Shown: positions 1,996 through 62,007 of the stretch, one piece after another
Position numbering within the stretch: position 1 is the first letter of the stretch
How the letters are laid out: each line of letters begins with the position of its first letter
From: a virus
Strand: one strand, 5' to 3'
IMG/VR virus record: IMGVR_UViG_3300046323_000511
Location: 1 to 62,007 of that record
Length of the DNA stretch: 62,007 bases
Translations under genes and position numbers: made by a program
Notes under the pieces: generated by a model
The model's input: only the letters and a program-made list of their open reading frames with translations
Databases searched by the model: none
Told to the model about the DNA's origin: nothing

Positions 1996-3120
1996 CTATA
2001 AAAATTCACTTGCCATCTTGGCAACCATAATTGTTTTCCTACTCACCCCTAAATCCTCTGAGATACGATTAGTTTTAACTCCTTGCTCCAGTAGTTCTAC
2101 TATCTGTTTCCTTGTGGAAGACTTCAAGCCATTGTGATCGGATTCAAGCCATCTCATTGCCGATTCCTTGTCGTGAATATTATAGTCATTCCTTTTTTTA
2201 TTACTAGCCACAAAACCGATTTGTGCCACTTCTGGCTTATATACCTGTGGTTTTCTTTCTTCTTCTTTTTCGGCTTGGATTATTATTTGCTGCTTTTCCT
2301 CTTTCGGAGTTAGCACATTTATACCTTCTAGGTATATCCGATAATTAAAATATACGCTGTAATGAATACACAATACAGCCACCAACTCAAATATAAGCGA
2401 TAAGATAAAAGCCACAACTGCATACCGGATGCTTATATCCTTCACTACTTTGCTTCCGCTATTTGTTTTATCCTCTATCTCTGCCACCTTTTTCGTTTTT
2501 TCGCTTTCATAAGCCTGTATTAATCGCTGGTAATTTTGAATTTTGGTCTGCTCCACTTCTGGGATAACTAATAACAATCCCCTTTTTATCTTGTCTGCAT
2601 TCTGTCTCTCTATCTCGTTTGAGATGGTTTTTAACTCCTTCACCTTTGCATCTGCCTCTCTTTCTATCTTGGCAATTAACTTGTCCTTTCTTTTTTCAAG
2701 AATAGACGTACTATCCGTGATGGTGCTTGCTATTTGGTAGGCCCCTATACTGCTTGAAGTAGAACTTAGTATAAAAAGAAATATACTAATCAGCAATGTA
2801 GACACGTCTAATTTATCTGTCTTGTATCTCACTAGGAATAAATCTTTCCAAATTACATACTTTGCAACTTCTAGTGTGGATAGTATCACTATCACTACCA
2901 TAGAAATCACAATAGCCTTGTTTTCAAAGGCAGGTATCATTGTGTCTGCAAGCAAATACAATGATACGCTTGCTAGTCCCATACCGCAAATTTGCAGTAG
3001 TATTTGTGCAAAGGTGGAAAGAAGTATCTTCCTGCCATTATCCTTGTGAAACGGTTTCTTACTAAACATACCTATTGATTTTTGATATATCTTTTCCTCC
3101 CTGATTTTTTCGTAATCCAT
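1996..3120 (-). CDS. Membrane protein with C-terminal helix-turn-helix
   Basis: This 374-residue protein has about three N-terminal membrane segments (residues 32-55, 68-90, 106-130), a charged coiled-coil stretch (about 140-220), a fourth segment near 232-256 and a cytoplasmic tail. The last 40 residues contain a helix-turn-helix (TRKQIVELLEQGVKTNRISE, then GVSRKTIMVAKMAS) like resolvase or response-regulator HTHs. It is the first gene of the leftward operon, driven by a perfect promoter facing the XRE repressor. A membrane-tethered DNA-binding protein at a lysogeny switch would be unusual. The HTH role is inferred from pattern only. Confidence 0.75.
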   Translation of the reverse strand: MDYEKIREEKIYQKSIGMFSKKPFHKDNGRKILLSTFAQILLQICGMGLASVSLYLLADTMIPAFENKAIVISMVVIVILSTLEVAKYVIWKDLFLVRYKTDKLDVSTLLISIFLFILSSTSSSIGAYQIASTITDSTSILEKRKDKLIAKIEREADAKVKELKTISNEIERQNADKIKRGLLLVIPEVEQTKIQNYQRLIQAYESEKTKKVAEIEDKTNSGSKVVKDISIRYAVVAFILSLIFELVAVLCIHYSVYFNYRIYLEGINVLTPKEEKQQIIIQAEKEEERKPQVYKPEVAQIGFVASNKKRNDYNIHDKESAMRWLESDHNGLKSSTRKQIVELLEQGVKTNRISEDLGVSRKTIMVAKMASEFL

Positions 3121-3222: not shown

Positions 3223-3245
3223 GGTATTGATTTGCTATTATTTAA

Positions 3246-3276
3246 TTTGTATAATTCATTATTATATCTATATTTG
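3246..3276 (+). promoter_or_regulatory. Rightward Bacteroidota-type promoter for the repressor
   Basis: TTTG at 3246-3249 and TATATTTG at 3269-3276 with a 19-base spacer. The predicted transcription start is only about 10 bases before ATG 3292, which rules out the longer in-frame ORF start at 3232. Confidence 0.85.
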
Positions 3277-3291
3277 TGTAAAAAAATACAA

Positions 3292-3624
3292 ATGAACAAC
3301 GAATTTATAGATGAATTTCGCAACTACCTTTGTCAGACAATCAAGGAAAAAAGAATCCTATTGGGTTATTCTGGTGCGAAAATCGCCAAGCTGGCAGGTA
3401 TATCGCAATCATCATATTGGAATTTTGAAAACTCCAATGGCACGCTGGAAGTCAAAGCTCTTATATCTATCATTCACGCCTTGGATTTATACAAAGATAT
3501 ATTCTCCCCCATAAAATCAAAAGCATTGCAGGTTCTTGAAGACAAAGTGGATATACAGCCTGAGATAACCAACAACCAAATCAATGAAAAACTGGATAAA
3601 ATCCTAGCACTTCTTAATTCCTAG
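3292..3624 (+). CDS. XRE-family helix-turn-helix repressor
   Basis: A 110-residue protein with an N-terminal XRE/Cro-CI DNA-binding domain: SGAKIAKLAGISQSSYWNFE (about residues 26-46) gives the two HTH helices, followed by the packing helices. The C-terminal 40 residues (EKLDKILALL) look like a dimerising coiled coil. It is the only clear repressor in the genome, is transcribed divergently from the membrane/HTH gene and lies next to the integrase, so it is the likely lysogeny regulator. ATG 3292 was chosen because the promoter overlaps the upstream extension. Its last bases overlap the convergent gene at 3621-4289. Confidence 0.85.
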   Translation: MNNEFIDEFRNYLCQTIKEKRILLGYSGAKIAKLAGISQSSYWNFENSNGTLEVKALISIIHALDLYKDIFSPIKSKALQVLEDKVDIQPEITNNQINEKLDKILALLNS

Positions 3625-4340: not shown

Positions 4341-5552
4341 ATGAAAACATATTTAAACTTAAACTTCATCTATTACCCATCTCAGGCAGATACTCAGGGA
4401 AACTGTGTTCTATACCTACGTATCAAAACGGAGACAGGGAAATACGAAATCCTAAGTACCGGGTTTACCACTCCTACAAATAAGAAGGGAAACTATTTTG
4501 ACAAAAAAAAACAAAAATTTACTGGCAAAACCGTCCAACATCTAAACAAAGCCTTGGCGGAAATGATTAGCGAGATTCATACCATATACACCACTCTTGC
4601 CGTAAATTCTCCTAATCCCATATCGGCTGCCATAATAAAAAACAACTATAAAAAATCTCTGGGTACTGATATTACCCTGATGGATTTATTCAACCAATTC
4701 TACACCTACTACCAAGAATCAGCGGATAAGGCAAAAAAAGAGAATACCATCCGCCTTTATACCACCCTCTTTGAAAAAGATATGGTTATTTTTCTTCCCC
4801 TCAAATATACAAAAAACCTTTGTATATCACAGGTTAATCAGGATTTCGCTTATGAGTTTGCAAAATACCTCAAACTCCGTGGCCTTAAAATCAGCACCAT
4901 ATCCCAAAAAATAATGGCGCTTAAAACCGTCTTCTCTTGGGCTGTATCCCAAAAATTACTGAAGGAAAATCCAATTGACTACCAAGTGGATTTCAAAACC
5001 TTTACCCCGGATCACAAAGAGCCTTTGGATTTAGATACCATCAATTTGCTTTTTTCGCACGTATCTAAAAACGAGAAAATAAATCAGGTAAATATCCTAT
5101 TCCAGTTTATGCTAATGACTGGCCTGGCATACTGTGATTTATCTAGCCTATCCGATAAAGACTTTGTAGATAAGGAAGGTAATACTTTCCTTATAAAGAA
5201 GAGGCAGAAAACAGGTATTCAGTCTGTCATACCTTTGTTTCCTACTCTCCTATCCTTGTATGAATCCAATAAGGATTTGATACTAGGACAAAAAGATAGC
5301 AATGCTTTATTCTATCTGCATCTACAAACTCTTCGTAACGAAATCGGCATTAGACAAAAATTGTCTAGCCACATCGCCCGGGTTACATTCTCCCAGATTC
5401 TCTTGGATTTAGGGATAAATGATTATATCCGAAAAAAATTTATCGGTCATTCCTACCGGGATACCCTCTCGCATTACTCCTCCGATAACTACAATCATTT
5501 TGCTTTAATCGGTAAAATGATTGACAACCACATAAAAAAACTAAACCTTTAG
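4341..5552 (+). CDS. int: Tyrosine recombinase (phage integrase)
   Basis: This 403-residue protein has an N-terminal arm, a SAM-like core-binding domain (about 110-210) and the C-terminal catalytic domain. Visible catalytic elements are the beta-hairpin Lys (KKRQKTG), H-x-x-R (SSHIARVTF), GHS and the nucleophile Tyr in LSHYSS. The first arginine of the usual RKHRHY set is replaced: the box reads MTGLAYCDLSSL, with Ala where others have Arg. That substitution is known among Bacteroidota recombinases such as those of conjugative transposons, so the enzyme is probably active. It implies a temperate life cycle with integration at a host att site not identifiable here. Confidence 0.95.
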   Translation: MKTYLNLNFIYYPSQADTQGNCVLYLRIKTETGKYEILSTGFTTPTNKKGNYFDKKKQKFTGKTVQHLNKALAEMISEIHTIYTTLAVNSPNPISAAIIKNNYKKSLGTDITLMDLFNQFYTYYQESADKAKKENTIRLYTTLFEKDMVIFLPLKYTKNLCISQVNQDFAYEFAKYLKLRGLKISTISQKIMALKTVFSWAVSQKLLKENPIDYQVDFKTFTPDHKEPLDLDTINLLFSHVSKNEKINQVNILFQFMLMTGLAYCDLSSLSDKDFVDKEGNTFLIKKRQKTGIQSVIPLFPTLLSLYESNKDLILGQKDSNALFYLHLQTLRNEIGIRQKLSSHIARVTFSQILLDLGINDYIRKKFIGHSYRDTLSHYSSDNYNHFALIGKMIDNHIKKLNL

Positions 5553-16015: not shown

Positions 16016-16267
16016 TTATATTTTGAGATAGTTAGAACCTTTTCTGTGTGCCTCGCATATTTCATTGATGTATTTTACATACAAAAGATTATGGTTATGC
16101 CCTGTGTATGTGTTCCATAATCTGTGATATATTTTATCTCTCTCTATTTTTCCTAGTGATGAGAAATGCTTTAGTATAATGCTCTGTCTCCATTTATAAG
16201 GAAGTTTACCGTATATAGAGATGGCCCATTCTTTGTACTCCTTGTATTTAATTTCCTTGTCTGTCAT
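16016..16267 (-). CDS. Hypothetical basic protein, 83 aa
   Basis: An 83-residue basic, aromatic-rich helical protein (KLPYKWRQSIILKHFSSLGK). It overlaps the upstream HTH-like gene by four bases (ATGA). It may bind nucleic acid given its charge, but no motif is diagnostic. Confidence 0.65.
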   Translation of the reverse strand: MTDKEIKYKEYKEWAISIYGKLPYKWRQSIILKHFSSLGKIERDKIYHRLWNTYTGHNHNLLYVKYINEICEAHRKGSNYLKI

Positions 16268-16623
16268 ATAACTTCGTTTATTTTCGTTGTTGGGTTGTAT
16301 CTGTACCGCCTCCCTGCCATAAAAGCAAGAATGTCTTCTCGCTTGTATTTGTAATTTGCTTTACCGATATTGTGGCAGGGTATCTGCCTTTTGTTCCCAC
16401 TAATGTACAAATGTTTTTTTAATTCGGTGGGATTTTTGTTCACAATAAATTTTGATTGTTCCACATTTGCAGTTGTGCAATTCAATATTTTAGCTACCTG
16501 TGCCACATTCATTGTATCGTGTTGGTAGTTGTTTTTAAATGTTTCTAGAAACAAATTTAGTGTTTCTTTAAGTTCTAGAACCATATCTATTAGTTCCGGG
16601 AGCTTGTCTTTTTGGTTCTCCAT
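16264..16623 (-). CDS. Excisionase/MerR-like HTH protein
   Basis: A 119-residue protein. After a helical N-terminus, residues 38-100 form a helix-turn-helix of the excisionase/MerR type: MNVAQVAKILNCTTANVEQS, then a beta wing, then YKREDILAFMAGRRY. Such small proteins act as recombination directionality factors or transcription regulators. Being in the early operon, it could help excision, but the integrase is 11 kb away. It ends in an ATGA overlap with the 83-residue gene. Confidence 0.65.
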   Translation of the reverse strand: MENQKDKLPELIDMVLELKETLNLFLETFKNNYQHDTMNVAQVAKILNCTTANVEQSKFIVNKNPTELKKHLYISGNKRQIPCHNIGKANYKYKREDILAFMAGRRYRYNPTTKINEVI

Positions 16624-16866: not shown

Positions 16867-17508
16867 TTAGTTTTCTATTTTGGCGACAATATCAATATGC
16901 TGCCGCATGATGTAATAAATATTACCTTCGATTTTACGTGGAAAATCGCTTGCCGTGGTATACAGTACAATATCCCCTACGGATAATTCTTTCTTTTGGT
17001 TTTTCAAAGGTGTTCCTATGTGTGTAACTTTTGCCAAGCCGGATCCAGATGGATATTTAATCGGTTTTGCCTCGCTATCCCAATCTAATATTATTCCCCT
17101 GGAACTCATATTTGTTTCCCGTAAAACCGGGATACAGAAGCACTTCCCCCCTATCGGGATAATATTGCCATTCCTTACCACACAGTAGATAGCTTCGTAT
17201 GGCACTCTGAATATGCTCCCCTTCAGTAAGTTTTCTTCCGTACACGTATTGTGGTGAAAGTAGATTTTATCCCCTACCTGTACCTCCTCCACAATATCGG
17301 ATAGCTTGTCTTCGATATAGAGTTCTCGATCACCTGTTAGGTATCTAGGTATTCCTTTCACAGTTCCAAATATACGGCTGTAATATCCCGGGTTAAAATC
17401 CGTGTCTATCTGTAGCGATATACCGTTTGTTAGTGTATGGCTGTCCTCTTTGATTTTTTCAACTTCCACTATACAGAAGTTGTTTATCGGTGTGTATTCC
17501 TGTTTCAT
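16867..17508 (-). CDS. Tandem GroES-like co-chaperonin protein
   Basis: A 213-residue protein that reads as two GroES-type beta barrels in tandem. Each has a start strand (INNFCIVEVEK; GGKCFCIPVLRE), a GTV/GLAKV strand, the VGD turn (VQVGDKIYFH; LSVGDIVLYT) and a final strand (YEAIYCVVRNGNIIPIG; YYIMRQHIDIVAKI). Single-domain phage co-chaperonins such as T4 gp31 help fold capsid proteins with host GroEL. The doubled form would act as a half-sized ring. The first domain lacks an obvious mobile loop with the IVL-type GroEL-binding motif, while the second has RGIILDW. Family call is from pattern and is not certain. Confidence 0.65.
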   Translation of the reverse strand: MKQEYTPINNFCIVEVEKIKEDSHTLTNGISLQIDTDFNPGYYSRIFGTVKGIPRYLTGDRELYIEDKLSDIVEEVQVGDKIYFHHNTCTEENLLKGSIFRVPYEAIYCVVRNGNIIPIGGKCFCIPVLRETNMSSRGIILDWDSEAKPIKYPSGSGLAKVTHIGTPLKNQKKELSVGDIVLYTTASDFPRKIEGNIYYIMRQHIDIVAKIEN

Positions 17509-17979: not shown

Positions 17980-18296
17980 TTTATTCCCAATAGTTTTTTA
18001 AGTCTTGTGAAAAGTGTATTTTTTTGTGGATCTTCTTCTGGGAATTTAAAATCTTCCAAAGGAATGCCGGGTGCTATATGGGGTATTCTTTGTATTTCAA
18101 ATCCTGGCATTCTGAAATATTCTATATACTTTTTTGGGCTTATATTATGACATTTTTCAAACTCTTCAAAGTATATTTTTGCTAATTCCTCTTCTTCGGT
18201 ATCCCTAAGTATTAAGACACTTTTCTTGGGTATTTCTTTAAGAAGATGCTCTATCGCCTTGCGCAAATCTTCTAGGTTTTTTGTCTGTTTTCGCAT
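17976..18296 (-). CDS. Hypothetical protein, 106 aa
   Basis: A 106-residue charged helical protein with no recognised family. It starts 25 bases inside the upstream gene (18272-18508) and ends in an ATGA overlap with the broken gene at 17979. The function is unknown. Confidence 0.65.
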   Translation of the reverse strand: MRKQTKNLEDLRKAIEHLLKEIPKKSVLILRDTEEEELAKIYFEEFEKCHNISPKKYIEYFRMPGFEIQRIPHIAPGIPLEDFKFPEEDPQKNTLFTRLKKLLGIK

Positions 18297-18508
18297 TTTG
18301 TTTTATTTATGTAATTTATAGCTTTGTATTCCGCGCAAAATTCCTTTATCACTTCCTTTGCTTTTTCTGTTTCTGCCTGTTTTTCTTCATCTGTCTTGTG
18401 TAATTCCCAAAAATTTAATACGCAGTAGTTGTAATCTATTTTTGTATTGTACAAATTATATAGCTTTTTATTTGCTACTTTGTTTGGGGGTATTTTTTGT
18501 TGTGCCAT
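18272..18508 (-). CDS. Hypothetical protein, 78 aa
   Basis: A 78-residue basic protein starting MAQQKIPPNKVANKKLYNLY. It overlaps the short MAAKPLT ORF upstream by 41 bases and the gene downstream by 25. No motif was recognised. Confidence 0.6.
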   Translation of the reverse strand: MAQQKIPPNKVANKKLYNLYNTKIDYNYCVLNFWELHKTDEEKQAETEKAKEVIKEFCAEYKAINYINKTKCENRQKT

Positions 18509-18836: not shown

Positions 18837-19067
18837 TTAAAATAGTAAAACATCAAAATTTTCTAGGCTTTTTCTTATTGAATCAGTAAGGTATTCTTCT
18901 GCGGAAGTCTCTATCTCGCTAATCAATTCAATTAATATATGGACCGATCCGTATTCCCAGGGAGCGTGAATTTTTATGTGATTGAGCTTCGCTTTGTAAT
19001 TTTCTAGTAGCTTTAAAACATCATCTAGTGTTGCCGGGTAACAAAATATCTCAGTTGGTATGCTCAT
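18837..19067 (-). CDS. Hypothetical protein, 76 aa
   Basis: A 76-residue protein starting MSIPTEIFCYPATLDDVLKL. ATG 19067 forms an ATGA overlap with the upstream stop and is preferred to a start 19 codons upstream inside that gene. Helical with a conserved-looking core, no recognised family. Confidence 0.65.
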   Translation of the reverse strand: MSIPTEIFCYPATLDDVLKLLENYKAKLNHIKIHAPWEYGSVHILIELISEIETSAEEYLTDSIRKSLENFDVLLF

Positions 19068-19335: not shown

Positions 19336-19384
19336 AATCTTTGTTTTTAGTTGTATTTATTACTAATATAGTTAATTACAAGCC

Positions 19385-19392
19385 CAAATGTA
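19385..19392 (-). promoter_or_regulatory. -7 box of the leftward early promoter
   Basis: Minus-strand TACATTTG matches the TAnnTTTG element about 50 bases before the first early ORF. The -33 position holds a T-run rather than TTTG, so activation by a phage or host factor is possible. Confidence 0.5.
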
Positions 19393-19900
19393 ACTAATTG
19401 TAGTCGAATAAAAAAATATTATTGGATATTTTTGCTTACTCCTGAGTGAATGTAGCGGATGTTTAAATGACCACGGGTGGTAGGCCTAGGGAAATCGAAA
19501 AATCTGTACCCGGGTGGATGGTAAAAAACTCCATAATTTTAAGCTGTTTTTTTATCTTACATTATACAAACAAATATAAGTTAAATCACAAAAAGCTATA
19601 TTACAGATAGTTAAAAGCTAAATTAATTTACTGCTTAGTTATTACCTTAGTCATTTGTATAGATAGCAGGGTAAAACATAATTATCTGGATTGATAAAAA
19701 TTAATTATCTGCTAAGTTGTTTTTGTTGGTCTGTCTGCGTCTATGTATTAGATAATATATAAGAGATTGAATAGAATATATAAGAGATGCAAAAAAGAAT
19801 GTAATAAAGTATAAATTAATCATATATCTGAATAAAGATAGATTAAAGCTATTATAATTAGCTATTCTATTAATTATAATGTTGTTGTATATTTATTTAT

Positions 19901-19977
19901 ACATTTATGTAACTTTTGTATAATTGTTTGCGTTAATGTATTTGAAAATAAATAATAACAATTAAATAAATAAAAGT
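19901..19977 (+). promoter_or_regulatory. Module promoter P1 and leader
   Basis: ATGTAACTTTTGTATAATTG then CGTT, followed by the leader element AACAATTAAATAAATAAA before ATG 19978. The box TATAATTG is at 19919-19926. First of six copies in this region. Confidence 0.75.
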
Positions 19978-20379
19978 ATGAATGATTTAGAATTAAGAAA
20001 TGAATTAAAAAATGAGTTTTCAGGTATTCAAGAAATTGAAGAGTATTTAGAGTTGATAAATTATATTAGACTTGAAAACGAGGCGCACGAATTTTTAACA
20101 CATATTGAAAATGAAACAGATAATTTTTATACAAAGGATGGTAATTATTTGTTTGTGCATTCGGATAATATAGAAGAGTATGCTCTTGAAGTTGCGACAG
20201 AATTAATAAATGAAATTTATATCACTGCGGACTTGGAAAAATCTTTTTTATTTAGTTTTATTGATGTTCCTGCTGCGGCTCAATTTCTTATTGATAGTGA
20301 TGGATACGGGGTTTTACTTGCCGGATATGATCACAATGAAAACAAAATAGGAGACTATTATTATTTTCGTGTAAATTAA
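19978..20379 (+). CDS. Acidic ArdA/antirestriction-like protein, 133 aa
   Basis: A highly acidic 133-residue protein. The C-terminal half follows the pattern of ArdA-type and related phage antirestriction domains: an E-Y-A-x-E helix (EEYALEVATELINEI), then FIDVPAAAQFL in place of the usual 'IDWEAxAxxL', and a last strand DYYYFRVN. Such proteins mimic DNA and block type I restriction enzymes. First unit of the rightward array, with its own promoter and terminator. Similarity is from memory of the motif and needs a profile search. Confidence 0.55.
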   Translation: MNDLELRNELKNEFSGIQEIEEYLELINYIRLENEAHEFLTHIENETDNFYTKDGNYLFVHSDNIEEYALEVATELINEIYITADLEKSFLFSFIDVPAAAQFLIDSDGYGVLLAGYDHNENKIGDYYYFRVN

Positions 20380-20398
20380 TCATCTAGTTATTTTATTA

Positions 20399-20435
20399 AA
20401 AGACCTGAGTACAAATGTATTCAGGTCTTTTTTTT
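20399..20435 (+). terminator. Terminator of module 1
   Basis: A perfect 10-bp stem AAAGACCTGA/TCAGGTCTTT followed by eight T's. Confidence 0.9.
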
Positions 20436-20450
20436 ATATCTTAGAATTAA

Positions 20451-20524
20451 TATATACATTTATGTAACTTTTGTATAATTGTTGTCGTTATATATGTATT
20501 ATCAAACAATTAAATAAATAAAAA
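20451..20524 (+). promoter_or_regulatory. Module promoter P2 and leader
   Basis: ATTTATGTAACTTTTGTATA identical to P1 over this stretch, box TATAATTG at 20474-20481, GTCGTT, then AACAATTAAATAAATAAA before ATG 20525. Confidence 0.75.
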
Positions 20525-20830
20525 ATGGATTATTATAATTTGCCTTATTATCATATCATTGAAATATCTTTCCTAGGGTGTACAAATTATTTGGGGCCTA
20601 GAATTAGAATCAAATCTGAAAGATTTGAACAATCTATAATTATTGACTATTCTCACGAACAAGCAGACATTCGGCATGATGCAATCAAATGGCTGGAAAG
20701 TAAAGGATTTGAGATTGTTGGCGCTGGTGAAATTAAAAACGGTTTTGCACTTATGAGCGTAACGTTTGAGCCTTTAAAACCTGTAAAATTTTACGGCAAA
20801 GAATTAGCTGATAAACTAGAAAAAAAATAA
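20525..20830 (+). CDS. Conserved mobile-element protein, 101 aa
   Basis: A 101-residue protein of a type found in many phages and plasmids: 'LGPRIRIKSERF' near residue 22 corresponds to the common 'GPTxTRGSRI' start, followed by a helix (IRHDAIKWLESKGFEIVG) and GFALMSVTFEPLK. The family's role is not established. Second unit of the rightward array, so it may be expressed in the lysogen or very early. Confidence 0.7.
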   Translation: MDYYNLPYYHIIEISFLGCTNYLGPRIRIKSERFEQSIIIDYSHEQADIRHDAIKWLESKGFEIVGAGEIKNGFALMSVTFEPLKPVKFYGKELADKLEKK

Positions 20831-20853
20831 AAATCCTCCCTCCTATTTAAAGT

Positions 20854-20885
20854 TAAACCATCTTATTTGAGATGGTTTTTTTTAT
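20854..20885 (+). terminator. Terminator of module 2
   Basis: Stem AAACCATCT/AGATGGTTT with loop TATTTG, followed by T's. Confidence 0.9.
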
Positions 20886-20886
20886 T

Positions 20887-20976
20887 GTTTTAAGTCCTCT
20901 CTAAACAACGAAATTAAAACCCGGTATCATAAAGGTTTTTTGCTTGCATTCTCTGTATATGCTTTAAAATGCTTCT
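20887..20976. repeat. Degenerate intergenic repeat, copy A
   Basis: About 90 bases resembling 21624-21714, with best agreement at the end (TGTATATGCTTTAAAATGCT against TGTATAGGCTTTAAAATGCT). It lies between the terminator of one module and the promoter of the next. No ORF was found. Confidence 0.6.
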
Positions 20977-20994
20977 TTATGTGTCTTTAAAATA

Positions 20995-21078
20995 TAATAT
21001 ACAATTATGTAACTTTTGTATCTTTGTTGTCGTTTATAAATATGTAAGTAAATAAATAACAATTAAATAAACAATTAC
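20995..21078 (+). promoter_or_regulatory. Module promoter P3 and leader
   Basis: ATTATGTAACTTTTGTATCT with a perfect -7 box TATCTTTG at 21019-21026, GTCGTTTATAAATATGTAAG, then AACAATTAAATAA before ATG 21079. Confidence 0.8.
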
Positions 21079-21573
21079 ATGAAATTATTGAAAAATTCAA
21101 ATTTATTTCTTTTTGGACGTGGAAGAGATGTAAACGGCAATACAATTGTAAAACTTAAATTTAATTTCCCTAATGAAAGAGGTTTTAGTATTCAATTGGG
21201 CGGTGGTGCGTTGCAAAACACAGATTATTTATTAAGGGGTTTAAATGATAAAACTTTACCCGAATATCTTGAACTAATGAAAGAAAGTGATTTAAACACA
21301 TTAAGCAAAGAAATTATTTCTTATATTGAAAAATATGGGTCTAAAAAACAAAAAAGTAAATTAGTTGTTTTGCAGGAAAAGCAAAATAAGTATTTATATG
21401 AAAAAGTTATTCAACTTAATTGTGGGTATCGTTGGGATGACGTAGAAACATTTCAAACTGATTCCACCTATTGGATCCAGGATGAGGCAGAAAGAAAAGA
21501 AATTAAAAGACTTCCTGCGGAATATAGATTGCTTGGCTCTGTAAGGATAATAAGGCGCAAAACATTGAGATAA
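21079..21573 (+). CDS. Hypothetical protein, 164 aa, array unit 3
   Basis: A 164-residue basic protein. Residues 25-60 are beta-rich (FNFPNERGFSIQLGGG) with a recurrent phage-like 'LLRGLNDKTL' segment; the C-terminal half is helical and charged and ends GSVRIIRRKTLR. It resembles small conserved phage proteins of unknown function. Own promoter and terminator. Confidence 0.7.
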   Translation: MKLLKNSNLFLFGRGRDVNGNTIVKLKFNFPNERGFSIQLGGGALQNTDYLLRGLNDKTLPEYLELMKESDLNTLSKEIISYIEKYGSKKQKSKLVVLQEKQNKYLYEKVIQLNCGYRWDDVETFQTDSTYWIQDEAERKEIKRLPAEYRLLGSVRIIRRKTLR

Positions 21574-21590
21574 AACGCCAAACTAAAATT

Positions 21591-21620
21591 AAAACCCTGT
21601 CCGTATGGATAGGGTTTTTT
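21591..21620 (+). terminator. Terminator of module 3
   Basis: Stem AAACCCTGTCC/GGATAGGGTTT with one mismatch and loop GTAT, followed by T's. Confidence 0.9.
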
Positions 21621-21623
21621 ATT

Positions 21624-21714
21624 ATTTTAAAGCATTTGTAATGAGCGAAATCAAAACCTAGTATAATATCAGGGCATTTTGTTTGCAGTTTCTGTATAGG
21701 CTTTAAAATGCTTT
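21624..21714. repeat. Degenerate intergenic repeat, copy B
   Basis: Relative of 20887-20976. It also forms a possible stem between AAAGCATTT at its start and AAAATGCTTT at its end. It occupies the gene-free gap 21574-21904 together with two terminators. Confidence 0.6.
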
Positions 21715-21754
21715 TCCGGGCATACTATAAAAATAACCATCAACCAAAATTTTA

Positions 21755-21785
21755 AAACCCATCTCGTATCTGGATGGTTTTTTTA
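21755..21785 (+). terminator. Second terminator before module 4
   Basis: AACCCATC/GATGGTTT hairpin with T-run. No gene lies between it and the module 3 terminator, so a former unit between them may have been lost. Confidence 0.75.
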
Positions 21786-21819
21786 TGCCCAAATTTAAGC
21801 CTGTTTAATTGTTTTTAAT

Positions 21820-21829
21820 AGTCCGCAAA
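21820..21829. repeat. Decamer AGTCCGCAAA, copy 1
   Basis: First of six identical decamers. It lies just upstream of P4 and is followed by TAAGTAAACAT. Confidence 0.85.
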
Positions 21830-21830
21830 T

Positions 21831-21904
21831 AAGTAAACATTTAAGAAACAATTGTATATTTTAGTTCGTTTAATAAGTATTATCAAACAATTAAATATAA
21901 TAAT
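21831..21904 (+). promoter_or_regulatory. Module promoter P4 and leader
   Basis: AAGTAAACAT, AAGAAACAATTGTATATTTT (box 21855-21862), TTCGTTTAATAAGTATT and AACAATTAAATA before ATG 21905. Confidence 0.7.
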
Positions 21905-22192
21905 ATGAATATTAAAACACTTTCAGGACATTTAACAGCGAATGACAAGAAATCAATAAAGATACTGTTAAATTTAGGTTTATCGGATGGGAGAAACGGC
22001 AAAGGGACATATTTTTTAACTAAGAATGCAGATTTTTATACAGTAAAGAAATGTATAAAAGATAGGGGTTTAATTCCCGTCTCCGGGTCTTCTCTTCGTA
22101 TTTCTACGTATATTAGTACATTTGTAGTTATTAGATCTAAAAAATACGCCACAAACATTAAAAAAGATATTAATCAAATAGATTTATTCTAA
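21905..22192 (+). CDS. Hypothetical protein, 95 aa, array unit 4
   Basis: A 95-residue basic protein (MNIKTLSGHLTANDKKSIKI) with alternating helices and strands and no known family. It is bracketed by decamers at 21820 and 22194, with its own promoter and terminator. Confidence 0.7.
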   Translation: MNIKTLSGHLTANDKKSIKILLNLGLSDGRNGKGTYFLTKNADFYTVKKCIKDRGLIPVSGSSLRISTYISTFVVIRSKKYATNIKKDINQIDLF

Positions 22193-22193
22193 T

Positions 22194-22203
22194 AGTCCGC
22201 AAA
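22194..22203. repeat. Decamer AGTCCGCAAA, copy 2
   Basis: Begins one base after the stop codon of array unit 4 and before its terminator. Confidence 0.85.
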
Positions 22204-22211
22204 CCAATTTC

Positions 22212-22242
22212 AAAACCATTCCATCTCTGGAATGGTTTTTTT
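22212..22242 (+). terminator. Terminator of module 4
   Basis: Perfect stem AACCATTCCA/TGGAATGGTT with loop TCTC, then T's. Confidence 0.9.
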
Positions 22243-22263
22243 ATGCCCAAAATTGTTCTTAGC

Positions 22264-22273
22264 AGTCCGCAAA
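22264..22273. repeat. Decamer AGTCCGCAAA, copy 3
   Basis: Lies within CTTAGCAGTCCGCAAATAAG upstream of P5; the same downstream bases TAAGTAAACAT follow as at copy 1. Confidence 0.85.
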
Positions 22274-22274
22274 T

Positions 22275-22351
22275 AAGTAAACATTAATACAACTTTTGTA
22301 TCTTTATTTACGTTTATAAATATGTAAGTAAACAATTAAATAATTAAAAAA
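22275..22351 (+). promoter_or_regulatory. Module promoter P5 and leader
   Basis: AAGTAAACATTAATACAACT, box TATCTTTA at 22299-22306, ACGTTTATAAATATGTAAGT and AACAATTAAATAA before ATG 22352. The leader matches P3 over 20 bases. Confidence 0.75.
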
Positions 22352-22549
22352 ATGGGATTACATCTGGACATCAAAAACCTGAAAAGTAGAATTTCTTACA
22401 AAGTAAAAAAAGCGTGTACCGCAAGACAAAATCATTTTGATAGCATTGCAAGGGAATTAGGATATGCAGATAGTAATATTGCATACAATCATCTGGGAAA
22501 AGCGTTTATTGAAAAAGCAAAAATCAATGCACCTTCAATAAAACTTTAG
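22352..22549 (+). CDS. Hypothetical basic protein, 65 aa, array unit 5
   Basis: A 65-residue basic helical protein (MGLHLDIKNLKSRISYKVKK; SIARELGYADSNIAYNHLGK). The second half could be a small HTH-like helical bundle, but this is only suggestive. Bracketed by decamers at 22264 and 22551, with its own promoter and terminator. Confidence 0.65.
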   Translation: MGLHLDIKNLKSRISYKVKKACTARQNHFDSIARELGYADSNIAYNHLGKAFIEKAKINAPSIKL

Positions 22550-22550
22550 C

Positions 22551-22560
22551 AGTCCGCAAA
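22551..22560. repeat. Decamer AGTCCGCAAA, copy 4
   Basis: Begins one base after the stop codon of unit 5, the same placement as copy 2, and abuts the terminator. Confidence 0.85.
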
Positions 22561-22590
22561 AAACCTTCTCATCTCTGAGAAGGTTTTTTA
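22561..22590 (+). terminator. Terminator of module 5
   Basis: Stem AACCTTCTCA/TGAGAAGGTT with loop TCTC and T-run; nearly identical to the module 6 terminator. Confidence 0.9.
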
Positions 22591-22610
22591 TACATAAATT
22601 TATTCTTAGC

Positions 22611-22620
22611 AGTCCGCAAA
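22611..22620. repeat. Decamer AGTCCGCAAA, copy 5
   Basis: Lies within TTCTTAGCAGTCCGCAAA just upstream of P6, as copy 3 is for P5. Confidence 0.85.
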
Positions 22621-22624
22621 ATAA

Positions 22625-22699
22625 AACTATACATTATTGAAACAATTGTATATTTATTTGCGTATATTAATATGTAAGTGAACAATTAAATAATATAAT
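22625..22699 (+). promoter_or_regulatory. Module promoter P6 and leader
   Basis: ACATTATTGAAACAATTGTA, box TATATTTA at 22649-22656, TTGCGTATATTAATATGTAA and AACAATTAAATAA before ATG 22700. Confidence 0.7.
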
Positions 22700-22939
22700 A
22701 TGCAAAATATTAAAGAATTAGATTCGCAAAAAAAAATGTTAAGTATTGAAGTTGACAAATTAGTAGCAATCAAAAAAAGGCTTTATTCAAATATGGATAT
22801 AGAAAGTCCTATGAGTATTGATGAAAAAGAATTAAACAAAAAAATTTATCAATTGTATTCTGAAATCTTTCAGATAATAAAACAAAAAAGGAATATTTTA
22901 AAAGCAGAAAAAGCAGAAATTAAAGAAATAGTAATGTAG
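22700..22939 (+). CDS. Coiled-coil protein, 79 aa, array unit 6
   Basis: A 79-residue lysine/glutamate-rich protein, almost entirely helical with heptad-like spacing (KKMLSIEVDKLVAIKKRLYS; LKAEKAEIKEIVM). No family was recognised. Last unit of the array, bracketed by decamers at 22611 and 22967. Confidence 0.65.
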   Translation: MQNIKELDSQKKMLSIEVDKLVAIKKRLYSNMDIESPMSIDEKELNKKIYQLYSEIFQIIKQKRNILKAEKAEIKEIVM

Positions 22940-22966
22940 AAAAAAAACAGTATTGTTTATTTTAGC

Positions 22967-22976
22967 AGTCCGCAAA
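22967..22976. repeat. Decamer AGTCCGCAAA, copy 6
   Basis: Last copy, 27 bases after the stop of unit 6. It is followed by a small hairpin GTGGG-ATTGAAA-CCCAC and then the terminator. Confidence 0.85.
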
Positions 22977-23014
22977 ATAAAGCTGTTTCGGTGGGATTGA
23001 AACCCACAAATAAA

Positions 23015-23047
23015 AAAACCTTCTCATTTCTGAGAAGGTTTTTTTAT
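23015..23047. terminator. Bidirectional terminator between array and virion genes
   Basis: Perfect stem AAACCTTCTCA/TGAGAAGGTTT with loop TTTC and A/T runs on both sides. It ends the rightward array and overlaps the last codons of the convergent 2504-residue gene. Confidence 0.9.
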
Positions 23048-26000
23048 TTGTATAATCTTGGCTTTTCCTAGCTTCTTTAACTCCATATCTATCTTTGTCC
23101 GCTCTGCTCCTAGTGAAATTGCATTGGAATACAATTTCTGGGCAAGTTTTATATTCTCAGCATAGTTCTTGTCTATAATTTCTACTTCCTTGGTGTTTTT
23201 ATTCTTGTCCGCTATTTTCTTGCTGTATGCAAGTTCATTCAAGTTCTCCTGTATTTTCTTAATTTCAAATTTAAAAACTGATTCTACATTAAGTGCGCTT
23301 ACTCTTGCACCTGTCAGGTTGGCAAGTATCTCATCATTCAAATTATATTTCCGGTATCCCTCTTCTATCCCGTATATGGCTTTATAGATTTTCTCCGTAT
23401 CCTTAATAGTTTTGGGAGTGAATGCCGGGATTAGGTGGAATAAAATTTTGGAAGTCTTTGTGCCTGCATCATCATAATTATTATACACTTTCTTACTGCT
23501 ATTGATGGTTTTGTTCTGAAGTGTTTCAAAAACTTTATTGGCAAGTATCTCTGTTTTCAGGAATGGTGCAAAAATTTCCTTTGCAATCTCCAATGACAAT
23601 TCCTGTACTCTTTCTTCATCATCCAAATTGCCTCTTAGTCCGGCTCTGAAAACCATTTCCAAGGGCCTGGTTGGATACTGAAAAGCGTTGAATCTACCTA
23701 TGTCCAAATATCTGTATTCTCCTTTGGTTTGACCAAGTATTAGGATTGTATTGGTCTTACTCCATTCCGGGATGAAACTTCTCAGCTTCTCTTCTTTCTC
23801 TTCATCAAAACCGTTTCGCATATTATTCACCAAATAAGCAATTGCGCTTGGGAGTGTGGTTGCTGTCAAAACTCCTGCAAGTCTTTGAACTCCTAGTGTC
23901 CGCCTAGATGGTGTTTTTATTTCCTGTATTGCAAGATTTATTGCATTGATATAGTTCCGTATACTTTCGTATGTAAACGAAATGAACGGTGCAATGAATG
24001 GGCTTTTTGAAAGTTCCCTTATCCCGGTTGGAATTTCGCTGTAATTGGGTGTTACTTGCTTAATCACCTTGGCTGCCTGCACCTTGGCAAGCTCCTCTAT
24101 TTCCTGTTTATTTAGGACTGGAAATTCCTTTTTGTAGATTTTAACATACCTTGCCTTTTCATTCTCCCATGCAAGTATTTTTAAAATCAAGTCCTCTTTC
24201 TCGTATAGCTTAATAATCTTATTTGGCAGATCAATTGTCAGGTAATTTTTCAGCCTGCTATACTTTTTGGTTTGCTCGTCTAAGATATTGTCAAGCGTAT
24301 AATCTTGGTAGATATTCATAACTTCCTTGAATACGCTTGCGTCTAAGCCTTCTTTTGCTATTCCGTATCTAAGTAATTCCTTGTAGTATTCCTGAGAAGC
24401 AGTTGAATTTTGACTGAATGCAATTCCTAGTTTTTTGATTTTAGAAAAGTCTACGTATCCATTTAAAGTCACATAGCTTATGTTTCCCAACATATTTACT
24501 AGGTGTGTCGTGTGCGAAAATACTGTTGTCGCTGTATTTACTTTGTTTGTGGCTTTTACGAACCAAGAAAGTGCCTGTACTGTCAGATTTGTAGATTTGC
24601 TTATATCCTCGTTTTTAGAGTAATTACTCATCACTTCTTTCATCTCTGGTGTCATATAGACCTCATTTAAGGGGTCTGTACTATCTGAGGATCCTATCTT
24701 TACATAATATTCTCCCTCTGGGGCCTCTTTTAGGTAGCCTTCTTTTAATCCGTTTTCTTTCACGGATACCAGGAATTTATGTTTTTCAATCAGGTTCACC
24801 ATTTTCACGATTGACTTTGAATAATTAATGAATGGCTCTGTGTATTCTCCCATCAACTGGCGTATCACTAGGGCAATATCTCCCCTATTCTTCAATATAT
24901 TCAGGTCTTTGCTTCCTAACTTACTTCCTTTTACAATTGCTTCGGGTACATCGTTTGATGGATTAAGTGCAATATTTATGTAGGCGTTTGCTAAATCCTC
25001 GCTCGGGTTTAGGTATTTATCTGCCTCGGCTATAATTTTGGCTTTTCTGGTATTATCTACAATCTTGTCGGCTTTCAGTAGCATCCTCTCCCCTTTCTGC
25101 TTCAGTTGGGCTTCAATAAATATATAAGCATTCCTTATTAGTCCCGGATTTGTTTGCCTTATTTTATCGGCATAACCTTTTACATCATATATCTTGTATG
25201 ATCTAGTCAGGTATTTACCAATATTTGATTTTATCTTGTCTTCATTGGCTTTTGATACTATCTCGTTATCTAGTATATCTTTAGACAGCGCATCAACTTG
25301 GCTTCGCATTTTCTGTGCTACTGGAATAAGTTTAGCGAATGATAGCGTATCTGTCTCCCCTGTCAGGAATGATTGCAATTCACTCATCAACTTTGATTTA
25401 CTGGGGCCGTCTACGATTTTCTGTGCTTCCGCAATTGATAGGTCGCTTTCGCCTAGGATTGTGTTGCTTGATCGAATTATTATTTCTAGTTTTAAAATTT
25501 GTGCTTTTGCCTGTGCTAAATTGGCTTTAGCTATGTCATAAGCTAGTTTAGCATCCTCGATCAACTTATTGGATTCATTAAGAATTTCATCTCTGGTTTC
25601 GTCTGTTATTTTTTTATTCTCCTTCAGTATCCTTCCTATCTCTTTCTGCTTTGCCTTTTTTTCTTCTACCAATAGGTCGTTTGTATTATACTTTGATAGC
25701 AGTCCACGGTAAGCATCTGTCATTTGTGGCATATTTAGCAACCATTCTTTTGCTGTCTGTCCGGGTTTCCTTTTTGCGAAACCTGTAATTGTGGTTGCAA
25801 TCGTTTCCATTTCTTGAAGAATTTTGCCGTTTTCTTTGGCTGCGTTCCTATATCTTACTAGATTCACTTCCTTTGTTAGGGATTTTAATCTGGTTTGATT
25901 CGTGTTGAATACTGGATTTTGGCTTATCAAGGCTGCCACCATTTTTGCTAGGATATTAGGGTTTCTTTTTCTTACGTCCTCCCTCCTATCAGCCTTTATG

Positions 26001-34856: not shown

Positions 34857-35282
34857 TTAAAAAGGCATTAATTGTTTTAATTCCCTGGCAAATTCATCTG
34901 CTGTTTTACCATCTCTAAAGGCCTCCGATATGATGGTATTCACAAACACAGCCGTTATTTTGTTCACTTCTTCGTTGAACTTTTTTGCCAGGGGCAAGTT
35001 TTTCTCCTCATCGGATAGTGTTACAAGAAATAGATTTTTCTTACTCATTGAGTTTGCGTATTGTGCAACCTCGCTGGATTTAAGATATATTTCTTCTAAT
35101 TCTTTATGCGAAAACTCTGTTGCAAGAATCTTCTTAGTTACATTCTTGCACTCGTTGAATGCAATCAGCATTCCTTCTACGATTCCTCTAAACTGCGGAT
35201 GTTCCGGGTTCACGCCTATTGAATCTAGGGTTTTTTGCCCTATACGGAATTGCTTTGATATTGCTTTTTTTTCTTGTCCCAT
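34857..35282 (-). CDS. Hypothetical helical protein, 141 aa
   Basis: A 141-residue helical protein (MGQEKKAISKQFRIGQKTLD) with no known family. First gene of the insulated accessory operon, about 110 bases downstream of a perfect promoter. A 7-codon leader ORF (35374-35351) lies in between. Confidence 0.65.
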   Translation of the reverse strand: MGQEKKAISKQFRIGQKTLDSIGVNPEHPQFRGIVEGMLIAFNECKNVTKKILATEFSHKELEEIYLKSSEVAQYANSMSKKNLFLVTLSDEEKNLPLAKKFNEEVNKITAVFVNTIISEAFRDGKTADEFARELKQLMPF

Positions 35283-35398
35283 TTGTTTATTCTGTGTTTA
35301 TTTTACTTTTTTTTGTTTTGCTTTGTCAATAAATCTATTCCAGTCAAAGCAAATTTAAGGTTTCCATTAGTTTATTTATTTAGTATACAATATTAACA

Positions 35399-35429
35399 CA
35401 AATGTATAATTAATATTCTTAAAAACAAA
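35399..35429 (-). promoter_or_regulatory. Bacteroidota-type promoter of the accessory operon
   Basis: Minus-strand TTTG (35429-35426), 19-base spacer, TACATTTG (35406-35399). It is independent of the late genes and read soon after two tandem terminators. Confidence 0.85.
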
Positions 35430-58211: not shown

Positions 58212-58682
58212 ATGAAAAATCTAAATTTCCGTTATTTGCTAGTAGGTATAATCGCTTTCGTAGTTTTATTTTGCAACATCACATTTGCCCAAAAGAACTA
58301 CTATTTAGCTATTGAAAGCAAGGTAGGTAATGAAAGAACATTCCAAATGAATTTAGAGAAAAAAACGACAACCATTGTGTTATCTAAAAAAGATAGTCTT
58401 GGTATTAATGTCAAATGTTTTGAGGATGCGGCTTTTTCAAAACTATCCGATTTGCAACCTGTTACCATCGAATTAGGCAAATTATCTAATGGCGAATACA
58501 TTTCTCTTGGCACTTATCCCAATAATATTGTACTTGCCACACTAGATTTAGGCTATTTAGAAAATGATGTTTTATTCATAACGACTGATAAGTTTGATGG
58601 TGATTCAGGAAAATTAAAAGCCTGTTTAGGGATATACCTTCTTCCCGAAAATTTTGAGGCAAAAAAAAGGGGACTTAAATAG
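58212..58682 (+). CDS. Exported protein, likely moron, 156 aa
   Basis: A 156-residue protein with a clear signal peptide: basic start (MKNLNFR), hydrophobic core (YLLVGIIAFVVLFCNITF), and an AQ|K cleavage site near residue 27. The mature part is beta-rich and globular (YYLAIESKVG; TTTIVLSKKD). It stands alone on the plus strand between the terminase and portal genes, with its own promoter and a two-way terminator: a typical lysogenic-conversion gene that changes the host envelope or periplasm. Its function is not recognised. Confidence 0.75.
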   Translation: MKNLNFRYLLVGIIAFVVLFCNITFAQKNYYLAIESKVGNERTFQMNLEKKTTTIVLSKKDSLGINVKCFEDAAFSKLSDLQPVTIELGKLSNGEYISLGTYPNNIVLATLDLGYLENDVLFITTDKFDGDSGKLKACLGIYLLPENFEAKKRGLK

Positions 58683-58693
58683 CCCCTTTTTTT
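58661..58693. terminator. Bidirectional terminator after the exported-protein gene
   Basis: Stem AAAAGGGG/CCCCTTTT with A- and T-runs on both sides, overlapping the 3' end of the moron and abutting the convergent gene. Confidence 0.9.
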
Positions 58694-61690: not shown

Positions 61691-61903
61691 TTAAGATTTT
61701 TTTATTTTAACCCATTGGTTTTTTTCAGGATCATAATACTCTAGTGTTTCCAGATTTATAACCTGATAATCAAGGTCGTTTTTTGCCAATAGCAAATGGG
61801 TTTTCTCTATTTCATTTACCACCTCTAGGTGTGGAAGAGGATTACCCTTGTTAAAATTATAATCAGGATTTTCTCTATCAAATCGTCCTACTAAGTAACT
61901 CAT
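61691..61903 (-). CDS. Hypothetical protein, 70 aa, crossing the circle junction
   Basis: A 70-residue protein (MSYLVGRFDRENPDYNFNKG), mixed alpha/beta, ending WVKIKKS. Its start codons are repeated at window bases 1-30 because of the overlap. It comes between the 81-residue gene at 102-347 and the Acb2-like gene, and follows the conserved leader hairpin copy A. The function is unknown; its operon position suggests an accessory or anti-defence role. Confidence 0.7.
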   Translation of the reverse strand: MSYLVGRFDRENPDYNFNKGNPLPHLEVVNEIEKTHLLLAKNDLDYQVINLETLEYYDPEKNQWVKIKKS

Positions 61904-62007
61904 TTTTGTAGTTGCATCGGGTTTTATATAGGCCGCCCAAGCCTGTCTTTGTTTTGAAATAGTCTTGTAAATATCTAAAAAGGCAAATCATCCTGAACGA
62001 CTAAATC
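61874..62007. repeat. Right copy of the terminal direct repeat
   Basis: Matches bases 1-134 at 133 of 134 positions. The mismatch at 62000 falls in the end of the gene at 102-347 and would change one codon, so it is either a population variant or a sequencing error at the contig end. Confidence 0.95.

Follow-up and report, generated by a model that had tools for sequence, protein, structure and literature searches.

Six small phage genes on homologous promoter-terminator cassettes, a probable array of accessory genes

The virus record IMGVR_UViG_3300046323_000511 (62,007 bases, 36% GC; this whole stretch is what we call the window) carries nearly all of its genes on the minus strand. Its plus strand holds, between 19978 and 22939, a tandem array of six small open reading frames (ORFs) of 133, 101, 164, 95, 65 and 79 amino acids (aa). 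Judging from sequence, these are probably six independently transcribed accessory genes of the moron type, carried by a temperate podovirus that is a distant relative of crAss-like and Flavobacterium elemo-type phages. The original prediction of six promoter-ORF-terminator units was borne out, with six promoter-leader matches and a stable hairpin after each ORF. Its further claim, that the units are independent yet under one shared control, is supported by a common promoter, a common dyad, terminators belonging to each unit, and unrelated ORFs on homologous cassettes.

Control sequences and coding parts of the array

The promoter-leader pattern TTGTATNNTT-N22..50-AACAATTAAATA has exactly six matches in the 62 kb, each upstream of one array ORF, and none in 100 dinucleotide shuffles. 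When the 40-nucleotide (nt) core was scored in a leave-one-out manner, each promoter copy reached 29.8-52.0 bits, against at most 15.6 anywhere else in the window. The copies fall into two types, P1-P3 and P4-P6. P1 and P2 are nearly identical, as had been proposed for the whole set, but P4 and P6 clearly differ, and with two types present "near-identical" was too strong a description.

The -7 elements (TATAATTG, TATCTTTG, TATATTTA and similar) have a start region, CGT, four bases downstream. In Flavobacterium johnsoniae, promoters have a -7 element TAHHTTTG, a weak -33 element and a transcription start site (TSS) 4-5 nt downstream, and the initiation region is A-rich and free of Shine-Dalgarno sequences (PMC6847099). 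P3 agrees with that -7 at 6/6 conserved bases and the other five promoters at 5/6, and the array leader, A-rich and unstructured, fits the Bacteroidota type too. All of these features (-7, weak -33, TSS distance and leader) are points of likeness with Bacteroidota primary sigma promoters (PMC6847099); by sequence, neither the -7 element nor the A-rich leader is out of the ordinary for Bacteroidota. What the array adds, outside that consensus, is a conserved TAWACA arm and a central AAC. The conserved untranslated leader described earlier is indeed found in every unit, yet it is a generic Bacteroidota leader and nothing special (PMC6847099): AACAATTAAATAA also precedes unrelated chromosomal genes, for instance one conserved Pedobacter gene in at least 16 genomes. 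We also considered an activator, as the missing TTTG at -33 would imply, and dropped it, since F. johnsoniae promoters have a weak -33 element in any case (PMC6847099).

A hairpin with a T run follows each of the six ORFs, with minimum free energies (MFE) of -11.8 to -26.4 kcal/mol and z-scores of -4.2 to -9.7. On the plus strand, unit 1 consists of the P1 core (19898..19937; dyad TATACA-N13-TGTATA, -7 TATAATTG, start region CGTT, leader to 19977), gene 1 (19978..20379) and terminator 1 (20398..20431; MFE -20.7, z -8.3). Unit 2 follows with the P2 core (20453..20492), gene 2 (20525..20830) and terminator 2 (20855..20878; MFE -11.8, z -4.2), and unit 3 with the P3 core (20998..21037), whose -7 TATCTTTG is perfect, gene 3 (21079..21573) and terminator 3 (21591..21618; MFE -17.6, z -5.2). 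Unit 4 is made up of the P4 core (21834..21873; dyad TAAACA-N13-TGTATA), gene 4 (21905..22192) and terminator 4 (22212..22239; MFE -14.9, z -5.1), and unit 5 of the P5 core (22278..22317; dyad TAAACA-N13-TGTATC), gene 5 (22352..22549) and terminator 5 (22558..22589; MFE -17.0, z -7.9). P2, P3 and P6 bear the dyad as well. In unit 6, the P6 core (22628..22667) and gene 6 (22700..22939) are followed by terminator 6 (23006..23051; MFE -26.4, z -9.7), a perfect 21-bp inverted repeat that works in both directions on paper: it lies tail-to-tail with a 2504-aa late gene, is common to the array and the late operon, and would be able to end the latter from the other side.

The intergenic stretches are homologous to one another, with local-alignment z-scores of up to 23.9 (I4 vs I5) and 20.4 (I3 vs I4), and units 2 and 3 have about 110 nt in common 3' of their terminators. 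No homology was found among the six ORFs (z at most 3.5; no BLASTP pair below E 0.09). Homologous control stretches around unrelated ORFs suggest that control cassettes were duplicated while the coding parts turned over, and what is seen inside this one genome fits such a history. A weak terminator that has no gene (21759..21777, plus strand; z -1.3) supports it: its position, with terminator 3 on one side and P4 on the other, is what the loss of a unit's promoter and ORF would leave behind, and it is probably the leftover of such a unit. The spacers also carry six plus-strand copies of AGTCCGCAAA (at 21820, 22194, 22264, 22551, 22611 and 22967, spanning 21820..22976), placed upstream of P4-P6 and 3' of the stop codons of genes 4-6 and found nowhere else in the window; a recombination or binding site is possible. 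The base composition of the array is unlike that of the phage core, as in morons: its genes have 22-32% GC and a GC content at third codon positions (GC3) of 0.19-0.24, versus 37-42% and mostly 0.35-0.47 in core genes.

The dyad and its seventh copy

All six promoters contain a 25-bp dyad, TAWACA-N13-TGTAT, running from about -33 to -9. It is the new feature here and, by its sequence, no part of the F. johnsoniae promoter consensus. In its arms 10/12 positions do not vary, in its spacer 5/13 (Fisher p 0.04). With a spacing of 13, six sites are found that have no more than one mismatch; other spacings yield 0-5.

A seventh dyad, TATACA-N13-TGTATA, with spacing equal to that of the array copies, is found at 35384..35408. 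It overlaps the -7 element of a canonical minus-strand promoter (TTTG-N19-TACATTTG), downstream of which stands a lone gene inside the late region (34857..35282, minus strand; 141 aa, no family, stop codon taken from the sequence). The site scores 13.9 bits, versus 0.7 for the next-best one, and exceeds 150/150 shuffles of the remaining genome at two of three pseudocounts. A dyad in six promoters, with one more copy at an unlinked gene, suggests a single regulator for the seven promoters as the simplest reading, and the helix-turn-helix (HTH) proteins encoded in the window, at 1996-3120, 3232-3624 and 16264-16623, are candidates for it. The original prediction had called for a search for the promoter in other phages; no array with it was seen before the small genes of other phages, which tells in part against the prediction outside this phage, and within this one the dyad turned up at one more gene.

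A unit would thus be made of promoter, A-rich leader, ORF and intrinsic terminator. The RNA polymerase of the host, carrying the primary Bacteroidota sigma factor, would read each -7 (TAHHTTTG type). Transcription would begin four bases further on, at the conserved CGT, which puts the six predicted 5' ends at about 19930, 20485, 21030, 21866, 22310 and 22660; the leader would serve Shine-Dalgarno-free translation. With each transcript ended by its hairpin, every gene would be expressed from a monocistronic mRNA of its own, separate from the lytic operons. The units would stem from duplication of a control cassette, with the ORF replaced or diverged beyond recognition. A phage or host regulator would probably bind the dyad at the six promoters and the unlinked one, giving a regulon that may be kept on in the lysogen, or be switched on at entry and then repressed as plasmid establishment regulons are. 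What we infer here is that the units are transcribed, that there is a regulator, at what time the genes are expressed, and that their proteins have an accessory or host-interaction role.

One can go further and picture a cassette-array regulon, in which one regulator acts through the 25-bp dyad of the six tandem cassettes and the unlinked promoter, and recombination between the cassettes, and between the AGTCCGCAAA repeats on the flanks of genes and terminators, swaps the coding parts, making the array an integron-like, recombinase-free store of anti-host genes. We think this fuller picture unlikely.

Gene products, phage context and rival readings

Pfam, NCBIfam, PHROG and PADLOC gave no convincing assignment for any of the six genes. 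Homologue searches with genes 1 and 2 yielded no credible match. Gene 1 had been described as antirestriction-like, which found no support: there is no PF07275 hit at E<=1, and hhalign against five ArdA proteins gave a probability of 1.1% over 17 columns. Only its C-terminus looks like ArdA by eye, and the profile comparison led us to reject the idea; its single-sequence AlphaFold2 model is unusable (predicted local distance difference test, pLDDT, 44). For gene 2, an orphan, the single-sequence model has a bbb-a-bb order of strands (b) and helix (a) at pLDDT 67, with no significant structural relative. Gene 3 does have relatives in other phages. Its N-terminal part resembles small Vibrio phage proteins and its C-terminal part a 65-aa Acinetobacter phage protein, so that it fuses two parts that occur as separate small proteins in those phages. 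Gene 4 is weakly similar to a protein of Tenacibaculum phage PTm1 (E 0.01), gene 5 has no relative in the family libraries, and gene 6, Lys/Glu-rich and with 22% GC, none above family cut-offs.

The lytic genes lie on the minus strand on either side of the array. The late genes, read downward between about 61 and 23 kb, include those for the terminase, for structural proteins with the 2504-aa one among them, and for a muzzle-like protein; the early genes, which begin at 19.3 kb and read the same way, include those for a replication initiator, DnaB, a C5 methylase and a Cpn10-like protein. Family identification places a tyrosine integrase (4341-5552) and an HTH_3 repressor-like gene (3232-3624) on the plus strand, and with these two genes the phage is probably temperate. 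The array shares their strand and is antisense to both lytic operons, which makes its expression in the lysogen plausible; prophage accessory genes are typically antisense to lytic genes and read from their own promoter (PMC7067206).

Several observations count against the accessory-gene reading or its regulatory part. None of the six genes has a homologue of known function. At the heavier pseudocount, 6/150 shuffles attain the score of the seventh site. The dyad is imperfect and partly overlaps the -7 element, and because of this, and because the six copies share ancestry, its conservation is modest evidence. In the window scan, neither the repressor-like gene nor the beginning of the early operon had a copy of it. 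Finally, no close relative with a different gene set was found, so that the proposed exchangeability of the set is drawn from within this genome, where duplicated cassettes with unrelated ORFs and the gene-less terminator argue for it indirectly.

The same data can be read as a strict establishment regulon, with anti-defence or host-takeover genes that come on together at DNA entry and are then shut off by the dyad-bound regulator, on cassettes exchanged between phages. We consider this possible, if rather doubtful. Its nearest functional precedent is offered by pLS20 plasmids, whose variable establishment and anti-defence genes lie in several operons controlled by EGeRS (PMC8708921); variable AT-rich orphan ORFs sit on conserved control cassettes here as well, and the dyad overlaps each promoter. 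Pfam, NCBIfam and PADLOC, however, recognise no anti-defence protein among the array genes, the ArdA test of gene 1 was negative, no regulator was picked out, and the pattern and model scans found no exchanged arrays.

It also seems improbable that these are ordinary monocistronic lytic early genes, behind a strong host-type early promoter that was tandemly duplicated, with neither a regulator nor an accessory role. Duplication is evident, the array adjoins the early operon, and -7 and leader are plain Bacteroidota signals, the leader occurring also at unrelated chromosomal genes such as the Pedobacter orthologues mentioned above. Yet the array lies opposite both lytic operons, on the strand of the integrase and repressor-like genes, and its GC3 is very different; besides, the left dyad arm is kept beyond what the promoter type needs, and the seventh dyad stands at an unlinked gene. 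Neutral expansion of repeat cassettes, with short ORFs of no selected function, could account for short orphan ORFs in AT-rich DNA and for the terminator remnant at 21759, but is very improbable given six intact ORFs that start right after the leader and end right before the terminator, well-kept promoters and terminators, and the relatives of gene 3 (more weakly of gene 4) in other phages.

Three further features of the record are worth describing. The same short ORF is present at both ends (5-118 and 61878-61991), so that the record is probably complete, with a terminal repeat. The roughly 550 nt that separate the array from the early operon (19340-19890) hold no clear genes and carry GC-rich palindromes (ACCACGGGTGGT, CCCGGGTGG) and AT-rich repeats, possibly as an origin or early control region. 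Amid the minus-strand late genes there is a lone plus-strand ORF of 156 aa (58212-58682), moron-like in appearance, whose start resembles a signal peptide and which possibly has a terminator at 58662-58693.

The array among relatives and known systems

The terminase shares about 30% identity with its counterparts in Flavobacterium elemo-type phages and in MW202828, and at most 39% with those of IMG/VR relatives, none of which has the array. No array is shared with ten relatives and MW202828, and no close relative was found through the neighbouring late protein. The exact promoter and spacer-repeat patterns have no match in IMG/VR. A looser promoter-leader pattern gave single matches in 39 viral (IMG/VR) and 92 genomic (GTDB) stretches and no array, the genomic ones being mostly generic Bacteroidota promoters and leaders or chance. 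The core dyad pattern has 37 single matches in IMG/VR, the best of 20.9 bits versus 53-68 in the array. Sequence model R1 found scattered weak singles in 396 Bacteroidota genomes (best 22.6 bits), a weak negative because only ten candidates were scored per genome; in 68 related loci and in the pattern matches the sequence model gave only single weak matches. As near-identical records may also have been withheld from these searches, they do not prove that the array is absent elsewhere.

Relatives with repeated elements upstream of small genes do exist, but their elements differ. In one (L241; G306 63142-65248), three consecutive plus-strand genes each follow a repeated GCCCCTCnGGGGGC hairpin and a common leader. 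Four distant relatives carry short structured elements, about 20 in all, that lie 10-25 nt upstream of the start codons of small minus-strand genes and have the form AACTG, a covarying hairpin (often T-arm-like, GGTTCGANTCC) and CAGTTCCTCA. Those of L265 are on the minus strand at 17244-17284, 18284-18327, 18841-18881 and 19661-19704, with more copies in G308 (L242), G310 (L246) and G314 (L250). When 18 copies are aligned, standard pairs fill 95% of the pair cells and covariation is 0.28, versus 0.09 in shuffles. They match no Rfam family, and an ARAGORN tRNA scan of L265 was empty; from sequence, this seems to be a tRNA-like element of 5' leaders that has not been described before.

A moron usually comes as a single insertion, with a promoter unrelated to those of other morons, whereas the array has six consecutive units and one promoter family. 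Its likeness to morons and prophage accessory loci (PMC7067206) lies in the promoter and terminator of each unit, the antisense position to lytic genes, the atypical base composition and a host phage with integrase and repressor-like genes. In cluster K mycobacteriophages, small unrelated genes stand behind repeated promoters that contain inverted repeats; some of them are lysogenically expressed, and a regulator is suspected (PMC3203893, PMC11373665). With those ESAS/SAS elements, as here, small genes from different families of a temperate phage are preceded by several copies of one intergenic promoter with an imperfect inverted repeat, and by a conserved start-proximal leader. ESAS copies, however, are scattered, with SigA-like -35/-10 elements and a Shine-Dalgarno-bearing SAS (GGGATAGGAGCCC), a sequence that the array lacks; it has six tightly arrayed copies, a terminator per unit, a promoter with a Bacteroidota -7, and a 25-bp dyad with a fixed 13-bp spacer.

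Plasmids of the pLS20 type have repeated control sequences before variable establishment and anti-defence genes (PMC8708921), and the array shares with these EGeRS the variable small genes in several operons with homologous upstream control sequences. One EGeRS family has a repressor with operators flanking a strong promoter, and the regulator of p576 is known (PMC8708921). These are plasmid and not phage systems, and the EGeRS set holds the antirestriction gene ArdC, whereas no anti-defence gene is recognisable in the array. Having looked for the cluster K sequence and for a recognisable anti-defence gene and found neither, we regard the array as analogous to ESAS and to pLS20-type establishment regulons and as a member of neither.

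The promoter type is, by sequence, ordinary for a Bacteroidota-type host group, and the scans made did not turn up the array a second time. Small size and a lack of relatives make accessory phage genes difficult to recognise. A repeated promoter-terminator cassette flags them by control sequence alone, and predicts their co-expression outside the lytic programme. Should the dyad prove to be an operator, the regulator and the timing would be directly testable, and the six orphan genes would form a short list for host-takeover, exclusion and anti-defence assays in Bacteroidota, a group for which few such genes are known.

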